Source: Limnobacter parvus
Lineage (GTDB): Bacteria > Pseudomonadota > Gammaproteobacteria > Burkholderiales > Burkholderiaceae_B
Assembly (NCBI RefSeq): GCF_024623725.1
Contig: NZ_JANKHG010000027.1
Span: 1 to 64,000 of the forward strand
Reading direction: 5' to 3'
DNA: 64,000 nucleotides
Shown: in pieces, positions 5,336-44,719 of the stretch
Numbering within the stretch: position 1 is the first letter of the stretch
Layout of the letters: each line of letters begins with the position of its first letter
The notes under the pieces: model-generated
The model's database searches: none
What the model was told of the DNA's origin: nothing
Seen by the model: only the letters and a program-made list of their open reading frames with translations
Program-made: the position numbers and the translations under genes

Positions 5336-5521
5336 AGTAAAGTCGAAATTTACTCACAAGTTACATCCATTTTTGCTGGTGCTTTTCTATATCTTGTGGG
5401 TATTGTTCGATTTGTGAATCTAAACCGAGTGTGTCTTAGTAAGAGGGGTTACAAATATACATTCTGGCTTATTGGCCGCACTATCTATTCAAGAGGCCCA
5501 CACGGCCCTGAGGAGACATAC

Positions 5522-7504
5522 ATGATCGGTTTTCTACCCAAGAATTCCACGCTGAAATTATCTATCCTTGTTGCACTGGCATCAATGCACTGTATTTCTA
5601 ACGCGGCTGGATCATTTGAAGGCCCGGTCGGTATTGAAGGCCGGTGGGCCATGGAAGTGACAGTGGGTGCGTCGATGCGGACCAAAGATGCTGACAAATC
5701 CCTGATATTTATTGGCAATGGTGGTAACGCTTCCAGTGGTACAGTTGACGATGGAAACCTGAACTATGGCAAGGGTGATGTATTCAATGCTGTGGCCAAG
5801 GCTGTGGGTGAGTTGGAACTGAAGAAAGACAATTACGGCGTTTTCATACGCGCCAAGGCTTTTTCTGATTTTCACAATCGAAGCAACAAGGTGCCTCATG
5901 GCTCATCGAACAACGGGTTTCGCCCGAACGAGCCATTAAACGACGATGGGTTCGACAAGGGTACCAAGTTTGAGGATGCTCAATTTCTTGATGCGTATGT
6001 CTTCGGTGATTTCGAACCTTTGGGTAAACCGCTGACAATGAAGGTGGGTAACCAAGTTGTAACTTGGGGCGAGGCGCTGTTTGTATTGGGTGGTGTGAAT
6101 CAGTATTCCAACTTTGACTCGGCGGCATTGCGTCGCCCAGGTGCCCAGCTCAAAGAAGTCTTCCTGCCAATCCCGCAAATTTACGGCAATTTGCAAGCGA
6201 CCGAGGCGCTCTCTCTGGAAGGGTTTGTACAGCTCAATCACGAGAAAGTAGTTGCCGATGGTTGCGGTACATTTTTCTCGCAGGCAGATCTACTAAATTG
6301 TAACCTTCAAGGGGCACCGATTAATCCAGGTGTATTGAGCTTGGGGGGCGCGGACATTGATTTCACCGGATACAACGACCAGCAGACTTTTTCGGGTGGT
6401 GGCACCATCAACGCAGGTGGTATTCCGATTGATACATCTTTGCTGGCAGGTTTATCCAATCTGCCAGGTTTGGGAGTTCTTTCAGGTTTGACAGGTCTTC
6501 CACTGGATGTTTCGCAACTGAATTTCCGGATGGCCCAATTGGCCGATGGTCGCCCTAAAGACAGTGGACAGGCGGGTTTGGCAGCACGTTATTATGCGGG
6601 TGAAATTGGGACAGAGTTCGGTGCTTATTTTGTAAATTATCACCAACGAATTCCCGCTCTGAGTTTGGTTAAAACACCGTCCAATATCGACAATTCGGTT
6701 TTTAATGGTTTGGCTGTGGCGGGTCAGGACATTGTTAACCCACTGTCTTATTTCTTTGATTACAGCAAAGAAAACATTCAGGTACTGGGTCTTTCCGCAG
6801 CCACAGAATTGTTTGGTTATTCGGTATTTGGTGAAATTAGTTACACAAAGGATTATCCGGCGAGTTACAACACAGCTGACTTGTTGAAGGGCGGGGCAAC
6901 TGGTGATGGTCCTCTAGGTCGCTTTGGTGATCCCGCCCAGTTTCCTGTGGGTTCTGTGTTGCAGGGCTACAAGCCGTTGGACAAAATTCAGGCGCAGGTC
7001 TCAACAATCACTTTGTTCCCCCGTCGATTGGGTGCAAGTCAAGTTGCGATCGTCGGTGAGTTCGGTGCGCAAATGTGGCGCGGTATTGGCAATCCATTCA
7101 CTGAAGAGCGCTTTGGACGCTCTCCAGCGTTCGGCGCAGGTGCCCACCAGTCTTATGGTGAGTGCACTGCCGGTGTTAACCCCAACCCACGCAACTGCGC
7201 GGTGGATGGCTATGCGACTGAAACGGCATTTGGTTATCGTGTGCTTTCTGTTGCCACATATCCTGATGCATTATTCGGTATAACTTTGGCTCCTCGAATT
7301 TTCTTCTCGCATGACTTCAAGGGTTATTCAGCCGACGGCGTGTTTCTTGAGGACCGTATGAACTTGGGCTTGGGCGTGCGCGCTGAAATGCAGTCGGCTA
7401 AATATTTTGCTGAGATGAATTACAGCATGTTCAATGACAAAGCATATTTTGACCCATTCAAGGACCGTGACTTCCTGTCTTTGGTAGTGGGCGCCAACCT
7501 ATAA
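5522..7504 (+). CDS. DUF1302 family outer-membrane-type protein
   Basis: From ATG 5522, preceded by GAGGAG, the product is 660 residues; the open frame extends upstream but lacks a start signal there. The first 30 residues are a signal peptide ending near SNAAG. The rest resembles the DUF1302 family, thought to be large beta-barrel outer membrane proteins: alternating aromatic and polar segments, Gly/Asn-rich loops, and a short C-terminus ending LSLVVGANL. A low-complexity Gly/Leu region lies near residues 290-330. In Pseudomonas and Burkholderiales, DUF1302 genes commonly sit directly before a DUF1329 gene, as here. Together with the following YCF48-like and RND genes this suggests an envelope transport system for a hydrophobic compound; the substrate is inference only. 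Confidence 0.85.
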   Translation: MIGFLPKNSTLKLSILVALASMHCISNAAGSFEGPVGIEGRWAMEVTVGASMRTKDADKSLIFIGNGGNASSGTVDDGNLNYGKGDVFNAVAKAVGELELKKDNYGVFIRAKAFSDFHNRSNKVPHGSSNNGFRPNEPLNDDGFDKGTKFEDAQFLDAYVFGDFEPLGKPLTMKVGNQVVTWGEALFVLGGVNQYSNFDSAALRRPGAQLKEVFLPIPQIYGNLQATEALSLEGFVQLNHEKVVADGCGTFFSQADLLNCNLQGAPINPGVLSLGGADIDFTGYNDQQTFSGGGTINAGGIPIDTSLLAGLSNLPGLGVLSGLTGLPLDVSQLNFRMAQLADGRPKDSGQAGLAARYYAGEIGTEFGAYFVNYHQRIPALSLVKTPSNIDNSVFNGLAVAGQDIVNPLSYFFDYSKENIQVLGLSAATELFGYSVFGEISYTKDYPASYNTADLLKGGATGDGPLGRFGDPAQFPVGSVLQGYKPLDKIQAQVSTITLFPRRLGASQVAIVGEFGAQMWRGIGNPFTEERFGRSPAFGAGAHQSYGECTAGVNPNPRNCAVDGYATETAFGYRVLSVATYPDALFGITLAPRIFFSHDFKGYSADGVFLEDRMNLGLGVRAEMQSAKYFAEMNYSMFNDKAYFDPFKDRDFLSLVVGANL

Positions 7505-24809: not shown

Positions 24810-25193
24810 TGGTGGAGCCGGCGGGAATTGAACCCGCGTCCGCAAATCCTCCACTACCAGTTCTACGTGTGTAGTCGTCTTGTTTGCATTTAACGGTTGC
24901 TGACGAAAAGCGACATCCTGCAGCACCCGCGATCCACCTTATTTAACTTACTGGCCGGCAGCAGTCCAGTAAGCGGTCCGATGTAGATGATCCCACTGCG
25001 GGTTTGACCCCGCCCAGCCCATCGGCGAGCTGGTGTAGGAAGTCCAAACTAAACTGGCTTAAGCGGCCAGTTTAAGTTCGGGGCTAAACGAAGAGTCGTT
25101 TGCGTTTAAAGTTTTTCAGATGGATTTACGAGGTAACTGATCCTCGACACGCCCCAATAGCTTTGCAATCCACGTCGAAACCAGATCGACCCC
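24810..25193 (-). ncRNA. ssrA: Transfer-messenger RNA (tmRNA)
   Basis: A 384-nt one-piece tmRNA. The 5' end GGGGTCG pairs with CGGCTCC before the encoded ACCA tail to form the acceptor stem. The T-arm GCGGGTTCAATTCCCGC and the conserved 5' stretch GATCTGGTTTCGACG are present. The resume codon is GCA at 25103-25101. The reading frame encodes ANDSSFSPELKLAA and then TAA (25061-25059). The stop lies in a hairpin AAACTGGC / GCCAGTTT, as in other tmRNAs. tmRNA with SmpB frees stalled ribosomes and tags incomplete proteins for proteolysis. The tag keeps the AND start and LAA end but is longer than the 10-11 residues I expect for relatives. Confidence 0.97.
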
Positions 25194-42736: not shown

Positions 42737-43744
42737 ATGAAAGTGATTGTGACAGGTGCAGCTGGTTTGATTGGCAGCAATTTGGTGAAAGCGCTGAATG
42801 AACGGGGAATTACCGATGTGTTGGCCGTTGACAACCTGACCAAGGGCGACAAGTTCTTGAACCTGGTGGACTGTGAGATTTCTGATTACCTGGACAAAGC
42901 CGATTTTTTGGCTCGAGTAGAACGTGGCGAATTTGGCCGCTTCGATGCCATTTTCCATGAAGGCGCTTGTTCCGACACCATGGAACACAACGGCAACTAC
43001 ATGATGGCCAACAATTTCCGCTATACACAAACCCTTTTTGAGTGGGCGCAGCGCACGGGTACGCCGTTTTTGTATGCGTCTTCGGCCGCTGTGTATGGTG
43101 GCAGCACGGAATTCATTGAAAATCGCGATGTGGAAAAGCCGCTGAATGTGTACGGGTATTCCAAGTTCTTGTTCGATCAGGTACTGCGGCGTCACATGAA
43201 AGCCGGTTTGGATGCTCCAGTGTTTGGATTTCGCTATTTCAACGTGTATGGCGACCGCGAGCAGCACAAGGGCAGAATGGCGTCAGTGGCCTTCCACAAT
43301 TTCAACCAGTTTCGCGAAGGCGGCTCGGTGAAGCTGTTTGGGCCTTATGGTGGCTATGAAGCAGGTTGTCAGCAGCGCGATTTCGTGTCGATCGAAGACG
43401 TGGTTAAAGTAAATATGTTCTTTTTTGAGCAGGCTACTTCGGCGCCCTCTGGCGTTTATAACTTGGGTACGGGGCGGGCGCAAACGTTTAATGATGTCGC
43501 CTTGACCACCTTGAACACTTTGCGTGAAAGCCAGGGCAGCGCGCCGCTCAGCCTGCAAGATGCAGTGCAAGGCGGCTTTATTGAGTACATCGAGTTCCCG
43601 GATGCGTTGAAAGGCAAGTACCAAAGTTACACGCAGGCTGATTTGAACAATCTGCGAGCAGCGGGGTACAAAGAAAGTTTTTTCAGCGTAGAAGAAGGTG
43701 TCGCGAGGTATGTCGGCCGTTTGATCAAAAAATATCAAAAATAA
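42737..43744 (+). CDS. hldD: ADP-L-glycero-D-manno-heptose 6-epimerase
   Basis: A 335-residue extended SDR. The NADP-binding loop is [16 protein letters not shown]. The catalytic residues are in SSAAVYGG and [10 protein letters not shown]. It converts the D,D to the L,D form of ADP-heptose for the LPS inner core. AAGGA precedes the ATG at good spacing. It ends the LPS block; a folded RNA and terminator follow. Confidence 0.95.
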
Positions 43745-43774
43745 TGAAACTAATTGATGGGAGTTGTCACTTAT

Positions 43775-43960
43775 TAATGTTGGTTGATTCGGCTACTTGA
43801 ACCGAGTCGCCCTGAATGGTGGGGTTCCCCCACGTTTTAAGGGTAGGCCAACTGCTTGTGGACTCGCATACTCACCTCTAGGGGCGAGCTTTGCGACCAA
43901 GCAAGTGTCTCTGTCTCCTCAAGCCCTGTTAAGCCCGCTTCTATAAGCGGGCTTTTTTTT
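43775..43960 (+). ncRNA. Candidate structured small RNA or 3'-derived RNA
   Basis: After the hldD stop the sequence can fold into two nested domains. Domain 1 is closed by GTTGGTT (43779) with GGCCAAC (43846). Inside are GATTCGG / CCGAGTC and CCCT / AGGG with GTGGGG-TTC-CCCCAC. Domain 2 pairs TGCTTG (43853) with CAAGCA (43898), enclosing CTCGC / GCGAG. A perfect intrinsic terminator closes it. No frame of note lies inside, and the next gene is on the other strand, so it is not a leader of a downstream gene. I see no SRP, RNase P or 6S signature. It could be an independent RNA or the 3' end of the hldD message. Confidence 0.5.
43931..43960 (+). terminator. Intrinsic terminator ending the structured RNA / hldD transcript
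   Basis: AAGCCCGCTT pairs perfectly with AAGCGGGCTT across CTAT and is followed by a run of eight T residues. It works only on the plus strand; no T run follows on the other. Confidence 0.92.
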
Positions 43961-43972
43961 GGCAATTGATTT

Positions 43973-44326
43973 TTAACTCACCATGCCCGAAAAATACCAC
44001 TGGAACACCATGGCCAGCGTGGCCATGAGGCCGGTCATGGCGAAAGCCAGTGAAAGGGCCACGGACACCACCACTGCGCCCGTGGTTTGTTTTGTGTCCG
44101 CAGGATATTCTGGATTCAGCATGGCATTGAATTGCTCGTCTTTCATCAAACCAAATCGCATGGTGTCCACCCACCCTGCGAACGCAGAGACTGGAAAAGT
44201 CAGCATGTAAAACCAGAAGCGCTTTTTGCCAGCATAGATCCAGTGGCCACCAATGGCGCCAGTGATCAGCGCCAGCCAGCAGAAAAAAAGCTTGGATTTG
44301 AAGGGTTCTTGCGGTGATGCATTCAT
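43973..44326 (-). CDS. TM2 domain membrane protein
   Basis: A 117-residue protein. The N-terminal hairpin of two membrane helices includes [24 protein letters not shown], the TM2 domain signature (Gly-Gly-His plus a Tyr/Gly turn). A third helix (about residues 83-110) is near the C-terminus. The biochemical function of bacterial TM2 proteins is not established. It is convergent with hldD and its RNA, and divergent from rpsP. Confidence 0.8.
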
Positions 44327-44341
44327 TTTTTAAAACACTGC

Positions 44342-44370
44342 TTGTTAGATTGGGTTACGCTGGCTATAAT
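44342..44370 (+). promoter_or_regulatory. Sigma70 promoter of the rpsP operon
   Basis: TTGTTA and a perfect TATAAT are separated by 17 bases. The start point should be near 44377, giving a leader of about 88 bases before rpsP. Confidence 0.8.
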
Positions 44371-44381
44371 AGCGGGTTATC

Positions 44382-44402
44382 GGATTTCGTGTGTCGAAAT
44401 CC
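44382..44402 (+). promoter_or_regulatory. Leader hairpin upstream of rpsP
   Basis: GGATTTCG pairs perfectly with CGAAATCC around TGTGT close to the 5' end of the rpsP transcript. It may stabilise the message; no T run follows, so it is not a terminator. Confidence 0.45.
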
Positions 44403-44464
44403 CAATGATTCATTCGTTTGCAGTAGTGAAATCAAGCTGCAGCACTAATTTGAAAGAGGAAATT

Positions 44465-44719
44465 ATGGTCGTCATTCGACTCGCACGTGGTGGTTCTAAA
44501 AAGCGCCCATTTTATAGCCTGGTGGCTGCTGATTCACGCAACCGTCGCGATGGCCGTTTCATCGAGCGCATTGGTTTTTACAACCCTGTTGCGCCTGCTG
44601 GCTCCGAAGGTCTGCGTATCTCCATGGATCGTTTGACCTACTGGAAAAGCGTTGGCGCACAGTGTTCTTCTACTGTTGACCGCCTGGTTGGTGAATACAA
44701 CGCCAAGCAAGCTGCTTAA
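44465..44719 (+). CDS. rpsP: 30S ribosomal protein S16
   Basis: An 84-residue protein with the S16 signature [17 protein letters not shown] and [20 protein letters not shown]. It is an assembly protein of the 30S body. GAGGA precedes the ATG. It heads the rpsP-rimM-trmD-rplS operon, but an intrinsic terminator separates it from rimM. Confidence 0.98.

Follow-up and report, generated by a model that had tools for sequence, protein, structure and literature searches.

The closest described systems to the RNA reported here are CU-rich sRNAs that are processed from longer forms, such as S17 of Bordetella and ncS27 (PMC11722255, PMC5688073). S17 is made as an RNA of ~190 nt, from which RNase E produces a 67-nt form whose 5′ end falls close to where the C/U-rich loop starts. 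S17 represses BP2158, its level is Hfq-dependent, and repression at ribosome-binding sites has been proposed (PMC11722255, a preprint). In the ncS27 group, the CU-rich regions are complementary to ribosome-binding sites (PMC5688073), and overexpression of ncS27 slows growth (PMC5688073; reviewed in PMC10987360).

The window analysed here is a 64,000-nt stretch of the Limnobacter parvus genome (contig NZ_JANKHG010000027.1, positions 1 to 64,000). Just 3′ of hldD (42737..43744, + strand; ADP-glyceromanno-heptose 6-epimerase, NCBIfam TIGR02197, 429.4 bits, cut-off 274.6), a conserved upstream neighbour, lies an RNA element of ~182 nt (about 43779-43960, + strand), composed from 5′ to 3′ of a three-way-junction domain, a stem of 6 + 5 bp, a single-stranded CU-rich segment and an intrinsic terminator. 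We consider it likely that this is a noncoding sRNA of the Hfq type that acts in trans, its CU-rich tail blocking Shine-Dalgarno sites; by analogy, it would most likely act like the S17 and ncS27 sRNAs, while its membership of the Rfam family RF02278 fails. It resembles S17 in that the latter has a precursor of ~190 nt with a CU-rich segment towards the 3′ end and an intrinsic terminator (PMC11722255), but differs in that its body is a covarying three-way junction, its core (GUCUCUGUCUCCUCAAGCCCU) is its own, no hairpin separates core and terminator, and it does not adjoin coq7 as S17 does. With RF02278 and the double-hairpin RNAs ncS03, ncS05, ncS27 and ncS62 of Burkholderia cenocepacia it has in common a single-stranded CU-rich anti-ribosome-binding-site region and a terminator hairpin (PMC5688073). 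The B. cenocepacia sRNA ncS35, here set against the hldD-linked RNA by description, is likewise long (166 nt) and strongly folded, with a processed form that is more widely conserved; however, a term search of its text did not find 'CU-rich', most of its predicted interactions fall inside coding regions, and it is reported to be absent beyond its Burkholderia groups (PMC5760752). Finally, ncS16, in the ompA 3′ UTR, also sits behind a coding gene and has a dedicated start (PMC5688073), whereas the start in Limnobacter is a predicted one. Judged by titles and the opening lines of abstracts, none of the papers that a search for Limnobacter small RNAs returned deals with the hldD-linked RNA.

A structured element is present behind hldD. 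Two folded domains and a terminator, placed at 43775-43960 in an earlier note drawn from the DNA letters, were recovered there by folding, RNAalifold and a terminator scan. The + strand of this stretch folds with an MFE of -70.9 kcal/mol (z -3.50; 0/200 dinucleotide shuffles as stable), and the 5′ domain alone, without the core and terminator, retains a z of -3.46 (again 0/200), ranging from -1.75 to -4.58 when calculated sequence by sequence (19 sequences). RNAalifold, run on a MAFFT alignment of 17 sequences, returned a consensus of 40 pairs, 18 of which are changed on both sides in one or more sequences, and reproduced the closing helix, the two inner helices, the 6-pair and 5-pair stems and the terminator proposed previously. 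According to the consensus and pair counts from these 17 sequences, the 5′ three-way-junction domain (43779..43852) comprises the closing helix P1 (43779-43785/43846-43852, GUUGGUU/GGCCAAC) and the inner helices P2 (43786-43792/43802-43808, with CUUGA in its loop) and P3 (within 43809-43844). The second stem (43854..43906) consists of P4 (43854-43859/43901-43906; 6 pairs, double compensatory changes in 3/6) and P5 (43864-43868/43892-43896; 5 pairs, double compensatory changes in 4/5). The extent first given thus holds, apart from the 5′ boundary, which we move from 43775 to ~43779; 43748-43773 resembles a promoter.

Compensatory changes in relatives, which the earlier note had set as a check on the fold, are present: the helices outside the terminator are paired in 95.8 % of 521 cells, and 14 of their 31 pairs carry double compensatory changes in the 17 sequences. 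Double-change cells number 26 outside the terminator against a shuffled mean of 3.8, and 0/500 shuffles matched the observed covariation of the 31 non-terminator pairs on any of five measures. When pairing partners were slid by 1-3 columns, 30-49 % of cells were paired, with 4-10 double-change pairs and 6-14 double-change cells, a control that is generous to the structure, as the consensus came from the same alignment as the covariation count. Five divergent species (G143, G144, G148, G149 and G154) contribute most of the covariation signal. The minus strand also folds (z -4.50), as expected of a mirror image of the plus strand; we assigned the RNA to the + strand because G-U cells far outnumber A-C cells (402 Watson-Crick, 97 G-U, 7 A-C and 15 others among the 521) and because of the U-run.

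In the MFE of the window's sequence alone, UCC-U-CAAGC in the CU-rich tail takes the place of the 3′ strand in the 6-pair stem; the covariation-backed partner of the 5′ strand is GCAAGU at 43901-43906. As a conserved sequestering switch, this pairing (GCUUGUGGA/UCCUCAAGC) was rejected, since it loses one pair in G142 and G150 and more in the five divergent species, and it is also undercut by a core accessibility that is not consistently unusual relative to shuffled bodies. Long-range pairing of the CACUU box with AAGUGUC next to the core was likewise dropped, as its 3′ side changes to AAGCGUC in G154 and G149 without compensation.

The CU-rich core (GUCUCUGUCUCCUCAAGCCCUG, 43907..43928, + strand) is unpaired in the 17-sequence consensus and complementary to Shine-Dalgarno sequences, and is our proposed target-binding region. 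Between the second stem and the terminator, GUCUCUGUCUCCUCAAGCCCU does not vary in the alignment, positions 43907-43927 being identical in 17/17 sequences. Across the five most divergent species, the core columns are 92-96 % identical to the window, compared with 41-50 % for the 5′ domain and 63-77 % for the terminator columns. Core accessibility in the predicted full-length folds is mixed (0.32-0.85 in 19 sequences), lying above nearly all shuffled 5′ domains in G143 and G144, and at or below average in most close relatives. Full-length folds of the 19 sequences neither expose nor hide the core consistently beyond shuffled bodies; therefore, neither presentation nor sequestration of the core is established. 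In a predicted bare 3′ fragment the core is at least 0.92 unpaired.

The intrinsic terminator (43931..43960, + strand) has a stem at 43931-43954 with 10 pairs and a loop of 4, followed by a U-run that counts 8 U in the window, and double changes occur in 5/10 of its pairs. It was the first + strand site behind hldD in a scan of 43400-44500, which is expected to return 1.6 terminator-like sites by chance; the hldD-linked one stands out with its 10 pairs and is conserved. No other + strand terminator was found by the scan between the hldD stop and this one, and hldD transcripts should therefore carry the RNA as a 3′ UTR. The motif AAGCCC occurs twice at 43921-43936, once just ahead of the terminator stem and once within it (CAAGCCCUGUUAAGCCCG); by eye, the first copy never varies and the second is present in 14/17 rows, and a competing terminator pairing is possible.

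Upstream of the RNA, a promoter-like element (43748..43773, + strand) begins 3 nt past the hldD stop in the window and consists of AAC (43748-43750), 17 nt and CACTTA (43768-43773). The pattern AAC-N17-ACTNA is found at this position in 19/19 sequences (17 from Limnobacter and two from a sister genus) in a stretch without gaps, the pattern having been drawn from the alignment of the same 19 sequences, while the core motif follows the element at distances of 126 to 177 nt. A transcript starting a few bases beyond the element would start exactly where the closing helix does. From this arrangement we infer a putative promoter. An RpoE promoter was considered and rejected: its GGAAC/GAAACT box is a loose fit only, and the spacing and -10 are unlike the consensus.

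hldD adjoins the RNA in 16/16 Limnobacter genomes and on an additional Limnobacter contig (L084). On the other side, outside the RNA, lies a small TM2-like membrane protein gene (43973..44326, - strand; Pfam TM2, 22.1 bits, below the cut-off of 27.9), a conserved downstream neighbour that is found together with rpsP in 14/16 genus loci, with no match at the L015 and L016 loci. A tie to LPS genes, as once suggested for this RNA, is a matter of position, and nothing was found linking the action of the RNA to LPS.

A DNA search of 268 family genomes gave matches in 27, comprising all 16 Limnobacter genomes and 11 with short, weak matches (E 7.5e-4 or worse). An exact 19-mer from the RNA occurs in 15 stretches of the genome contig collection; one match (L076) was dropped, as it falls within an ORF of an unrelated record, which we take to encode a Ku protein. 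The exact 15-mer UGUCUCCUCAAGCCC is present in 16/16 Limnobacter genomes and 2/2 genomes of the sister genus (G213 and G214), but absent from the remaining 250 family genomes searched. A one-mismatch version occurs in 27 family genomes outside both genera; in the 10 that were read, no terminator hairpin was seen by eye right behind it, and several of these sites are the complement of a Shine-Dalgarno sequence plus start codon. hldD was found in 38 genomes outside the genus; among the 14 that were read, TCTCCTC was missing from the 420 nt after hldD in 13, the exception being G214, which has the element. Under stricter filters, a covariance model search of 399 genomes of the order found matches at E<=0.1 in 84, with 194.5 and 124.8 bits for the two Limnobacter genomes among them and at most 28.1 bits for the rest. 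Of 28 non-Limnobacter covariance-model loci, 19 were inspected by eye; none showed a recognisable three-way junction, and they comprised terminators, tRNAs with a terminator behind them and a small number of sites resembling CU-rich sRNAs.

The two sister-genus copies also lie behind hldD, and keep the promoter-like element, core and terminator while differing in the 5′ part. Downstream ORFs are TM2-like and rimM-like in G214, and matches in G213 are to a TM2-like gene and rpsP. The Limnobacter covariance model scores these copies at 41.2 and 35.1 bits, mainly through the core and terminator. In the G214 MFE, a helix AUGGAU/AGUCCAU closes around three hairpins; this helix is missing from the G214 centroid and, despite the presence of both its strands, unformed when G213 is folded with longer flanks. 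The alternative 5′ body of the sister genus is thus a predicted one only. The sister-genus copies show the fold to be the variable part of the RNA and the CU core to be the constant part. While the discrete structured RNA 3′ of hldD described in the earlier note stands, that account was silent on the invariant CU-rich core, the promoter-like element, the likeness in presumed mode of action to RF02278, S17 and ncS27 and the copies in the sister genus.

No Rfam family matched the hldD-linked RNA at gathering score, in agreement with the earlier judgement that it has none of the signatures of 6S, SRP, RNase P or tmRNA; with permissive E-values, only partial terminator or CU-rich matches appeared, all below gathering. 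The strongest case for an existing family would be RF02278 (Betaproteobacteria toxic small RNA; ncS27, S17), the RNA being its Limnobacter representative lengthened at the 5′ end. The 3′ part does carry the UGUCUCCUC-type CU-rich segment followed by an intrinsic terminator and scores 37.6 bits (E 8.2e-06 for an 851-base stretch), S17 is likewise a ~190-nt precursor with its active part at the 3′ end (PMC11722255), and the short CU core could share descent with RF02278. However, the score is below the gathering value of 50, 4/8 first-hairpin pairs in the alignment are flagged as non-standard, with deletions, and the region is unpaired in our consensus; RF02278 has two hairpins, and the hldD-linked RNA lacks the first and has a long structured 5′ domain. 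It also lies behind hldD instead of adjoining coq7, as an S17 orthologue would, and a separate RF02278 copy scores above cut-off in 16/16 Limnobacter genomes, the one in the window's genome being near coq7, the neighbourhood of S17. We therefore regard membership of this family as unlikely. Still less probable is that the stretch is merely a structured 3′ UTR and terminator that stabilise the hldD operon mRNA without any action in trans. Its location directly behind hldD, next to which it was always found in the genomes seen, and the lack of another + strand terminator before its own fit such a role, but a hairpin that only stabilises mRNA does not call for 21 nt of invariant single strand amid drifting helices; a further argument against it is the promoter-like element behind the hldD stop, with spacing fixed in 19/19 sequences.

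Coding capacity was weighed too, given the putative 32-aa ORF of S17L. A 7-codon frame (ATG TTG GTT GAT TCG GCN NCT TGA) can be read in the window and several relatives; by eye, it is broken in G143, G148 and G154, where the helices remain intact, and the sister-genus copies read quite different frames, making a short peptide a highly improbable product. Least credible of all is a cis-acting leader, riboswitch or attenuator for the downstream rpsP-rimM-trmD genes. rpsP is on the same strand, and no other same-strand gene is nearer, but it begins ~500 nt downstream, beyond the strong terminator and the opposite-strand TM2-like gene, so that the earlier dismissal of a leader was reasonable; moreover, rpsP has its own promoter-like site at 44342-44370 (0.9 such sites expected by chance), and no Rfam leader was matched at gathering score.

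Returning to the preferred reading of a trans-acting sRNA, features of the Hfq type are present in the intrinsic terminator with its U-run and in the Hfq gene of the host (PF17209, 100.3 bits, cut-off 27), and RNase E/G family proteins are encoded as well. The RNA would be driven by its own promoter directly behind hldD and also be carried as a 3′ UTR on hldD mRNA, with transcription ending at the intrinsic terminator. The three-way junction and P4/P5 would form a stable, fast-evolving body that presents the tail, protects it or is cut away from it, the cut probably being made by RNase E near the border of P4 and the tail, as in Bordetella S17. Hfq would bind the U-run, and the tail would pair with GAGGAGAC-type Shine-Dalgarno sequences, repressing translation of several mRNAs, plausibly those of uptake and catabolic genes. 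Candidate functions of the structured body are stability, a processing platform and a sensor. In a bolder and quite improbable extension, the 5′ domain would act as a sensor or bind a protein and so control when a fixed anti-Shine-Dalgarno tail is released or exposed, giving a modular riboregulator whose folded body is swapped in evolution and which couples the status of the heptose/LPS operon to translation of uptake genes; were this true, the same effector tail would be served by a three-way junction in Limnobacter and by another body, predicted to have several hairpins, in the sister genus.

The analysis adds a covariation-supported sRNA family without an Rfam match at gathering score to a lineage rich in CU-rich anti-Shine-Dalgarno sRNAs. 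It offers a clean case for asking why a structured body of ~125 nt persists when a tail of ~21 nt seems enough for target binding, and, because the body drifts while the core is fixed, the body's function can be tested directly in an environmental bacterium.

Read as its complement, the core gives a strong Shine-Dalgarno context. The pattern GAGGAGACA-N1-9-ATG was found 109 times in all, in 14/16 Limnobacter genomes, compared with 6 times for a backward control; at least five of the 109 sites are complements to other CU-rich sRNA candidates. The excess over the control is expected without any sRNA because GAGGAGACA before ATG is an ordinary strong Shine-Dalgarno sequence, and the sites would suit other CU-rich sRNAs equally. 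Among the fetched loci, DUF1302 genes lie behind GAGGAGACA sites in seven genomes (in the window, 5522-7501, Pfam PF06980), these seven leaders having been found by the motif itself, so that its presence in them is no independent evidence. Other genes behind such sites are presumably those for two kinds of response regulator, an HAD-type protein, FadL-like proteins and acyl-CoA enzymes. DUF1302 mRNA is a candidate target of CU-rich sRNAs. Its leader in the window (5495-5524) reads GGCCCTGAGGAGACATACATG, and the gene adjoins DUF1329. Duplex energies of the core with the start regions of 53 window ORFs (crude starts) were no better than those of shuffled cores (38/100 as good), and the 16-nt core complement with up to 3 mismatches was not enriched (208 occurrences, including 16 self-matches, vs 190 for the backward control).

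Several related loci came to light besides the hldD-linked RNA. The window's genome has four candidate CU-rich sRNA loci of ~37 bits or more. A canonical RF02278 sRNA lies near coq7 with one ORF between them (L061, 2012-2078, - strand; G000:C6:343911-343977, 65.1 bits) and is a possible S17 orthologue. The family name 'toxic sRNA' reportedly comes from Kimelman 2012, according to citing papers. A second candidate, at G000:C21:17476-17538 (- strand, L062; 40.1 bits, like the third below the RF02278 threshold), carries UGUCUCCUCUUCUCCGCAAGCGAGAAAGG and a terminator, with similar sites at L066, L068 and L069, and is preceded by an element resembling CTAGTANNAATCACCTACAAAT that, by eye, is partly palindromic like a regulator site. 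A third, with a double hairpin, lies at G000:C7:686791-686855 (+ strand, L063; 39.6 bits) directly behind a gene that we assume to encode a phasin, and also occurs in G156 (L067). A 34-mer, GAACTCATAACTTCATTGTAATCACTTCTAAGGG, is identical in nine Limnobacter genomes (G000:C18:91174-91207, - strand; L145). It lies close to where a presumably clpS-like ORF begins and, on the opposite strand, upstream of a presumably cold-shock-like one. The only Rfam match in the window at gathering score is a tmRNA gene at 24810-25193 (- strand, 211.5 bits).
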